Virus record (IMG/VR): IMGVR_UViG_3300022542_000239
Location: 1 to 41,029 of that record
From: a virus
Strand: one strand, 5' to 3'
DNA: 41,029 nt
A model generated the notes under the pieces. It did no database searches. It saw only the letters and a program-made list of their open reading frames with translations, and was not told the origin of the DNA. Made by a program: the position numbers and the translations under genes. Of this stretch, positions 2,827-3,891 are shown piece after piece (the stretch's first letter is position 1; each line of letters begins with the position of its first letter).

Positions 2827-2960
2827 TGAAAGAAGATGAAATAGAAACAATAGCCGATGCTGCCAGACAAGTTACCGCGAACATTGGTGGTTATGAGCCT
2901 CTTGAAGTGATTGAGATTGATGATTGCAGGGATTTTAAGGATTATTGTGAAGGTTCTTGA
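2826..2960 (+). CDS. Hypothetical acidic mini-protein (44 aa)
   Basis: The ATG overlaps the previous stop and the frame overlaps the GTG start of the methyltransferase by 14 bases. The product is highly acidic (MKEDEIETIADAAR...). Strongly acidic phage mini-proteins can mimic DNA, but nothing specific supports that here. Confidence 0.45.
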   Translation: MKEDEIETIADAARQVTANIGGYEPLEVIEIDDCRDFKDYCEGS

Positions 2961-3891
2961 TCTCTTTAGCGGTATAGGCGGCTTCTCTCTAGGGCTTGAA
3001 AGAGCTGGCATGGAAACAATTGCTTTTTGTGAGATAGAGAAGTTTCCTAGAGAAGTATTGGCGAAGCATTGGCCTAATATACCAATTTATGAGGATGTAA
3101 GGAATGTCACGAAAAAAAGACTCGATGCAGATGGGATTCGACCAGACGTTGTTTGCGGTGGATTTCCATGTCAAGACCTCTCGGTTGCAGGAAACCAAAA
3201 AGGCATCCATGCGGAAAGAAGTGGATTATGGGGAGAATTGTGCAGAATTATTGGCGAAGTACGACCTAAGTACGCAATCGTGGAAAACGTCACAGCACTC
3301 ATTAGTGGAGACAGCGGGAGATGGTTTGGCAGAGTTCTTGGAGACTTGGCCGAGATCGGGTATGACTGTGAATGGCATTGCATATCGGCTTCCGAACTTG
3401 GCGCGCACCATCACAGAGATAGGGTCTGGATTATTTGCTACCCCCAACACACTAGACGGGATGCCACCGAAATCAGAGAAAGCAATCAAGCGGGAAATGG
3501 AAGTGACCAGGAAGGGCAGAAGTCAACCAGCGAATCTCAGGGACCAGGTAATGCAGAAGTATTGGCCAACCCCATCAGCAGCCGACAACCGGGGCCGCGG
3601 CTGTCTTTCAACCCCAGCAATCAAGCGGCGTGTAGAAAAGGGCAAGCAGGTAATGTTGAGTATGTGTGTCTCGGAGGAAAATGGCCGCCTGAACCCGCAG
3701 TTTGTAGAATGGTTAATGGGGTACGAGATGGAATATACCCGGGTAGAGTCATCCCCTCCAATGCCACGCCGAAAGGCGAAACGGCGATGCGCCAACACAG
3801 ACTTAAAGGATTAGGAAATGCTGTTGTTCCACAAATACCCGAATTAATTGGAAGAGCAATAATGGAAGCAGAGAATGAAGAAAGCCGATAA
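2947..3891 (+). CDS. C5 cytosine DNA methyltransferase, alpha (catalytic) subunit
   Basis: GTG 2947 gives the classic start MKVLDLFSGIGGFS and has AAGGA about 7 nt upstream. C5-methyltransferase motifs appear in order: motif I at residues 5-14 (AdoMet binding), motif IV GGFPCQDLS at 71-79 with catalytic Cys75, motif VI ENV at 113-115, motif VIII HHHRDRVWI at about 154-162 and motif X GNAVVP at 290-295. The variable region is short and no motif IX is evident. A second gene (3104-3814) runs entirely inside in another frame and carries a motif-IX-like stretch, as in the two-subunit enzyme M.EcoHK31I. The likely role is to methylate phage DNA against host restriction. The target sequence cannot be read from the sequence. 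Confidence 0.85.
   Translation: MKVLDLFSGIGGFSLGLERAGMETIAFCEIEKFPREVLAKHWPNIPIYEDVRNVTKKRLDADGIRPDVVCGGFPCQDLSVAGNQKGIHAERSGLWGELCRIIGEVRPKYAIVENVTALISGDSGRWFGRVLGDLAEIGYDCEWHCISASELGAHHHRDRVWIICYPQHTRRDATEIRESNQAGNGSDQEGQKSTSESQGPGNAEVLANPISSRQPGPRLSFNPSNQAACRKGQAGNVEYVCLGGKWPPEPAVCRMVNGVRDGIYPGRVIPSNATPKGETAMRQHRLKGLGNAVVPQIPELIGRAIMEAENEESR
3104..3814 (+). CDS. Methyltransferase beta subunit, nested in the alpha gene
   Basis: This 236-aa frame lies wholly within the alpha gene in the +1 frame, yet reads as a conserved family. Key blocks are VDFHVKTSRL, STQSWKTSQ, LETWPRSGMTVNGIAYRLP, FATPN, YWPTPSAADN and LNPQFVEWLMGYE. The last block resembles methyltransferase motif IX, and proteins of this type are usually found beside Dcm-like genes. 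In M.EcoHK31I a smaller beta polypeptide is likewise encoded in an alternative frame inside alpha and supplies motif IX. The start ATG 3104 has TAAGGA immediately upstream; a later ATG (3128) is possible. It presumably binds alpha to complete the target-recognition lobe. Confidence 0.75.
   Translation: MSRKKDSMQMGFDQTLFAVDFHVKTSRLQETKKASMRKEVDYGENCAELLAKYDLSTQSWKTSQHSLVETAGDGLAEFLETWPRSGMTVNGIAYRLPNLARTITEIGSGLFATPNTLDGMPPKSEKAIKREMEVTRKGRSQPANLRDQVMQKYWPTPSAADNRGRGCLSTPAIKRRVEKGKQVMLSMCVSEENGRLNPQFVEWLMGYEMEYTRVESSPPMPRRKAKRRCANTDLKD

Follow-up and report, generated by a model that had tools for sequence, protein, structure and literature searches.

The small subunit of the C5-cytosine DNA methyltransferase M.EcoHK31I is encoded in an alternative frame inside the gene for its large (alpha) subunit, and M.EaeI is another alpha/beta C5-methyltransferase of the same kind. 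In M.HhaI and M.HaeIII, the recognition domain and motif IX are found in the same chain as the large domain. M.EcoHK31I harbors motifs I–VIII and X on its large subunit and motif IX on the small one, and its predicted recognition domain lies in alpha (PMC3404938). The small subunit of M.AquI carries both motif IX and motif X (PMC3404938).

A locus in the window (the whole stretch of DNA analysed, a virus record of 41,029 nucleotides) very probably specifies a single C5-cytosine DNA methyltransferase of two subunits, alpha and beta, similar to M.EcoHK31I, in which beta would supply target recognition and motif IX. The likeness, drawn from the description of M.EcoHK31I and not from its sequence, consists of two polypeptides, a large one with motifs I–VIII and X but without IX, and a small one nested in another frame. 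In contrast to M.EcoHK31I, the pair is phage-borne and has no recognised endonuclease partner among the neighbours tested, and its codon rates together with the alpha model favor beta, rather than alpha, as the site of recognition. The locus would share with M.AquI the distribution of a catalytic half and a recognition half over separate polypeptides; however, its motif X is in alpha, and the relatives L071 and L012, with motif X in beta, are closer to M.AquI. The original prediction placed a nested ORF at 3104–3814 inside alpha, and both ORFs are present at these positions with the motif strings quoted for them.

Alpha (2947–3891, plus strand) starts with GTG and comprises 314 aa. It matches PF00145 over residues 1–176 (E=1.1e-47) and phrog_363 (E=4e-79), and it has the attributes of a C5-cytosine methyltransferase of PF00145, with PCQ, ENV, and motif VIII all present in its catalytic domain. 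Its features are as follows.

2947–3891, plus strand: alpha, C5-cytosine DNA methyltransferase catalytic subunit with motifs I–VIII and X (PF00145, phrog_363, AlphaFold model against M.HhaI)
2959–2985, plus strand: alpha motif I, DLFSGIGGF, AdoMet binding (sequence, alignments A2 and A6)
3157–3183, plus strand: alpha motif IV, GGFPCQDLS, which contains the catalytic Cys and is read in +1 as beta DFHVKTS (sequence; P73, C74, and Q75 invariant in alignment A2)
3283–3291, plus strand: alpha motif VI, ENV, read in +1 as beta SWKTSQ at 3278–3295 (sequence; E112 and N113 invariant)
3406–3432, plus strand: alpha motif VIII, HHHRDRVWI (sequence; H154, R156, and R158 invariant)
3454–3753, plus strand: alpha spacer, residues 169–268, predicted to be disordered, where beta is the constrained frame (pLDDT below 50 at 169–185 and 187–268; position rates.39/.25/.24)
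3808–3834, plus strand: alpha motif X, GLGNAVVPQ (sequence; G289 and N290 invariant)

No motif IX was found in alpha after motif VIII. The proposal of a split C5-methyltransferase resembling M.EcoHK31I, with an alpha of 314 aa lacking motif IX, is supported, the IX-like block being located on the nested beta. In the AlphaFold model of alpha, the mean pLDDT is at least 90 for residues 1–160 and for the motif X helix, and falls below 50 across almost all of residues 169–268. The model superposes on M.HhaI 13–327 over 207–224 residues with Z of about 25 (up to 25.8). As modelled, alpha is an M.HhaI-like catalytic domain minus the small recognition domain, with the large-domain fold of M.HhaI and M.HaeIII.

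Beta is read in the +1 frame from its own ATG, lies entirely within alpha, and is the only ORF of at least 150 codons in the window that is embedded in a larger ORF.

3091–3094, plus strand: Shine-Dalgarno-like GAGG that precedes the ATG of beta by 9 nt (sequence; SD-like motif plus start in 113 of 171 relative loci versus 40 expected)
3104–3814, plus strand: beta, nested +1-frame subunit with an ATG start, 236 aa (phrog_1008; 0 stops versus 8.7–11.6 expected; +1 to alpha in relatives)
3341–3364, plus strand: beta block ETWPRSGM over alpha LAEIGYDC, a peak of synonymous-codon conservation with a ratio of 1.70 (synonymous-codon test)
3440–3574, plus strand: target-recognition-like region of beta, with (A/P)TP repeats (ATPN, WPTPS; T113, P114, T156, and P157 nearly invariant in alignment A5)
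3689–3727, plus strand: motif IX-like block of beta, LNPQFVEWLMGYE (N197, P198, V201, E202, M205, and G206 nearly invariant)

An open frame across a conserved gene can be a shadow ORF, kept open and made to look conserved only by the conservation of the alpha protein. The N-terminal part of beta is exposed to this reading, since the beta blocks FHVKTS, SWKTSQ, ETWPRSGM, and NGIAYRLP are exact +1 readings of alpha GGFPCQDLS, IVENVT, LAEIGYD, and EWHCISAS. For instance, ATC GTG GAA AAC GTC ACA gives IVENVT in alpha and SWKTS in beta, and alpha LAEIGYD is read as WPRSGM. The original prediction that both frames carry family-specific conserved blocks is correct as to their presence, yet several of the beta motifs are partly forced by those of alpha. 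The similarity of beta between phages is, for the same reason, not independent evidence, and shuffling and synonymous-codon tests are needed to tell the frames apart.

Stop codons distinguish the two cases. When the synonymous codons of alpha are reshuffled (20,000 replicates), the +1 frame across 3104–3811 acquires on average 8.7 stops, or 11.6 if codons are drawn from the usage of the phage; none is observed, and none of the 20,000 reshufflings left the +1 frame open. The +2 frame contains 16 stops over the same interval. The test was extended to 171 non-redundant loci (less than 80% identical, with motif IX in +1), in which 29 stops occur in +1 from just before motif IV to the gene end versus about 711 expected from synonymous shuffling. 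By segment, the observed and expected numbers are 262 and 263 from motif I to ten codons before motif IV (IV-10), 8 and 128 from IV-10 to IV+15, 5 and 137 from IV+15 to VI, 2 and 211 from VI to VIII, and 14 and 236 from VIII to the end. Protection of the +1 frame thus begins just upstream of motif IV, which is where beta starts. The +2 frame of these 171 loci shows no comparable loss of stops.

The depletion is also present in loci chosen by alpha alone (16 stops observed versus 137 expected, and 1 versus 95), among which 62 of 73 have a motif IX-like block in +1. Streptococcal phage monomers proved unsuitable as a negative control, since they too contain a protected +1 ORF, and PF00145 monomers from bacterial genomes were used in their place. 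In contrast to the window family, the 13 canonical monomers tested have no protected +1 frame (21 observed versus 25.5 expected, and 27 versus 33.5), which indicates that the shuffling null is sound.

Synonymous codons and start signals point in the same direction. For pairs of loci sharing the alpha residue, synonymous-codon identity over expectation is 1.05–1.10 upstream of the overlap, 1.36 around ENV, 1.53 over GRVLGD, and 1.70 over LAEIGYDCEW, and returns to 1.02 at motif VIII. Synonymous-site conservation across homologues, which had been named as a check of the overlap, is accordingly raised 1.3–1.7-fold over motifs VI–VIII. A +1 ATG is found in 153 of the 171 loci versus 79 expected, and the SD-like motifs are enriched as listed above.

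The two frames do not share the load evenly. Differences at alpha codon positions 1, 2, and 3 stand at.18/.11/.43 before the overlap and.23/.15/.43 from motif IV to VIII, and shift to.39/.25/.24 from VIII to X. Between IV and VIII, the constrained frame is that of alpha; between VIII and X, it is that of beta. This switch in position rates indicates that constraint is passed from alpha to beta at motif VIII and is not equal over the 700 bp. The claim that about 700 bp must satisfy two protein families at once therefore holds insofar as both frames are constrained, and needs amending insofar as alpha dominates IV–VIII, beta dominates VIII–X, and alpha residues 169–268 are predicted to be disordered. 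The dominance of alpha from IV to VIII is compatible with a shadow ORF; the constrained beta frame from VIII to X, the missing stops, the monomers that follow the null, and the enrichment of synonymous-codon conservation, starts, and SD motifs are not, and the chance that beta is a shadow ORF is close to negligible. Synonymous shuffling in three selections and two control sets led to its rejection. Beta is a real nested gene under coding constraint.

A programmed +1 frameshift after motif VIII could use the same coding capacity by fusing alpha motifs I–VIII to the recognition region and motif IX of beta. The gene ends of some relatives are those that such a fusion would need: in L071 and L012, alpha ends soon after VIII and beta contains both IX and X (alpha also stops soon after VIII in L013 and L020). 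However, protection of the +1 frame sets in just ahead of motif IV, about 90 codons before VIII, and this frame has its own ATG and SD motif. Motif X of window-type loci is again read in the alpha frame, so that two shifts would be needed; the same holds for L151, in which IX and X are in the alpha frame and only the recognition-like region is in +1. Programmed frameshifting is very improbable and was rejected on the basis of the position at which +1 protection starts.

The point at which the coding passes between frames thus differs among these loci. L018 and L251 resemble L151 in that only the recognition-like first part is in +1. The variants placed in the tree fall together with the window into a single clade that has strong support (100/99) and is separate from the monomers.

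The beta protein matches phrog_1008, labelled "DNA methyltransferase", with E=2.4e-25, as do all 84 aligned betas. The PHROG_1008 and PHROG_363 labels identify methyltransferase families matching beta and alpha, and do not record the nesting of one inside the other. Pfam, which the original prediction proposed to search with both proteins, assigns alpha to PF00145 and has no matching family for beta; its 84 aligned relatives likewise have no convincing Pfam match. For the beta segment LNPQFVEWLMGY, the top and only profile (hhalign) match is canonical motif IX, at a weak score (E=0.037, probability 1.4%). The arrangement in L151 and L251, in which the motif IX-like block of beta directly precedes motif X in one polypeptide, is a better argument for the identity of motif IX than the profile match.

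AlphaFold does not give a confident fold for beta alone with 84 sequences (pLDDT 62, pTM 0.26); rows from annotated phage records were left out of the alignments used for AlphaFold. Neither Foldseek/VIA-align with the model nor sequence profiles gave a PDB match for beta, and the BFVD matches to the model are just other phage methylases at meaningless rmsd. The poor model of beta alone might reflect folding that requires the partner subunit, although it does not prove this.

The window copy has two peculiarities. Its motif IX reads MGYE and lacks the usual P (MGFP/WP/YP), with YE occurring in 2 of 164 sequences. In addition, a 60-nt (20-residue) insertion separates IX from X at 3725–3790 when the window is compared with L001 and L002, its closest relatives; the insertion leaves both frames open, and no repeat family or duplication was found as its source. 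On account of MGYE and the insertion, the window copy may be altered in activity.

For the two-subunit enzyme, the following mechanism is proposed. Translation from GTG 2947 would give the large catalytic domain, comprising the AdoMet site, the PCQ nucleophile, ENV, motif VIII, and the motif X helix, with a predicted disordered spacer in place of the small DNA-reading domain of a monomer. Translation in +1 from ATG 3104 within alpha would give beta, the C-terminal half of which would contribute the missing target-recognition region and motif IX. Because the VIII–X segment evolves as beta codons and the corresponding alpha spacer is disordered in the model, the target-recognition region appears to lie in beta. 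Beta would then dock on alpha to form an active, sequence-specific enzyme. A physical alpha–beta complex, a need for both subunits, and a defined recognition site are all expected of such an enzyme. The genes near the locus include a phage terminase, ERF, YqaJ, and a RecA-dependent nuclease, and no endonuclease partner was recognised among the neighbours tested. The enzyme may serve as an orphan phage methyltransferase that marks phage DNA against host restriction.

The original prediction named an absence of beta homologues from independent genomes as grounds for its rejection; homologues were found in many. In 260 of 261 sequences, beta overlaps an alpha and is in +1 relative to it, and 194 of the 215 non-redundant loci carry the motif IX-like block in that frame. 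Genome contigs searched with beta returned 80 loci, whose titles name at least 14 phyla: Pseudomonadota, Bacteroidota, Bacillota, Actinomycetota, Planctomycetota, Nitrospirota, Myxococcota, Chloroflexota, Spirochaetota, Elusimicrobiota, Acidobacteriota, Patescibacteria, Neomarinimicrobiota, and Verrucomicrobiota, as well as an archaeon. These contig loci are probably mostly prophages. Beta occurs in 14 of 299 sampled Pseudomonadota genomes (one seed genome counted; about 4% of sampled species) and in 4 of 299 sampled genomes of the Brevibacillus phylum (one seed genome counted).

Annotation of the pair is uneven. In Paenibacillus phage Leyra, each of the two genes bears a methyltransferase annotation, and the overlapping pair is annotated in mycobacteriophages Noelle and TelAviv; the remaining annotated phage records examined have one of the two each. 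The gene tables of an Enterobacter plasmid (L386) and a Leptospira plasmid (L387), which are known to be incomplete, list alpha alone, and a +1 beta match overlaps it. In Mycobacterium phage Ochi17 (L015), alpha and beta are in short pieces whose frames have changed, and the annotation lists two short DNA methylases; this locus is possibly a decayed or rearranged copy. Nothing on a widespread overlap was found in the literature searched beyond citations of M.EcoHK31I. What is new here is that the architecture is widespread, occurring in hundreds of phages and prophages, that the family is larger and more varied than the literature found states, and that the frame-crossing point differs between lineages.

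A streptococcal and clostridial type, apparently separate, is also new. In streptococcal phages and a clostridial genome (L014, L019, L261–L340, and L373), alpha has motifs I–X, including IX and X, together with a protected +1 ORF of 140–178 aa that matches phrog_16143 and has 0 stops versus 178 expected. This ORF starts near MTxQxSQMSLF and ends in SLSDILEExVDEKYFLS. The SDILE..YFLS segment is in frame after motif VIII in Dcm-type monomers (L358). The second type clusters with the monomers in the tree, and its origin therefore appears to be separate, although an ancestral overlap with later losses may also account for it. N-terminal homology between the two +1 families is not claimed, since the shared alpha motifs force similarity.

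The bacterial sliding-clamp-binding consensus is QL(S/D)LF (PMC9690074). The N-termini of beta often read M-x(1-8)-QLTLF or QMSLF (L115, L126, L056, L136, L197, L184, and others, and the streptococcal L263–L281). QLTLF-like pentapeptides occur near the beta N-terminus in 20 of 171 loci versus 0.4 expected, and QMSLF-like motifs occur in 29 of 39 streptococcal loci versus 0.5 expected. The window beta has no QL(S/D)LF-like pentapeptide and contains only FDQTLFA; the clamp-like motif thus belongs to its relatives and not to the window.

These motifs would suit a beta that is a genuine protein with a role apart from, or regulatory to, that of alpha, such as the control of alpha or recruitment to the replication clamp, with alpha active alone, and the streptococcal alphas, which retain a +1 ORF despite having their own motif IX, would fit such a role as well. 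Against it, alpha of the window family is without motif IX and has a disordered spacer in the place of the recognition domain, while beta has a motif IX-like block. Even in the streptococcal loci, SDILE..YFLS is found solely in +1 (39 of 39, versus 0 of 39 in alpha) and is in frame in the Dcm-type monomers. A separate role for beta is accordingly unlikely, and the two-subunit enzyme is preferred.

A broader proposal, advanced tentatively and with reservations, is that nested +1 subunits are a general, repeatedly evolved design of C5-methyltransferases in phages and prophages. There would be at least two apparently separate origins, a PTP-type clade and an SDILE-type, and the crossing point would slide between lineages, so that beta takes only the post-VIII region, that region and IX, or both IX and X. 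In many lineages, the N-terminal clamp motif would tie methylation to replication forks.

In prokaryotes, long overlaps between genes on the same strand are rarely backed by solid evolutionary evidence, and here the architecture recurs in hundreds of genomes. The nested family thus offers a natural series in which to follow the division of constraint between overlapping frames. Beta is mostly missing from genome annotations, and many C5-methyltransferases of phages and prophages that are annotated as a single gene probably represent half of an enzyme. The annotated gene, when cloned alone, may yield an inactive protein, and predictions of specificity should use beta.
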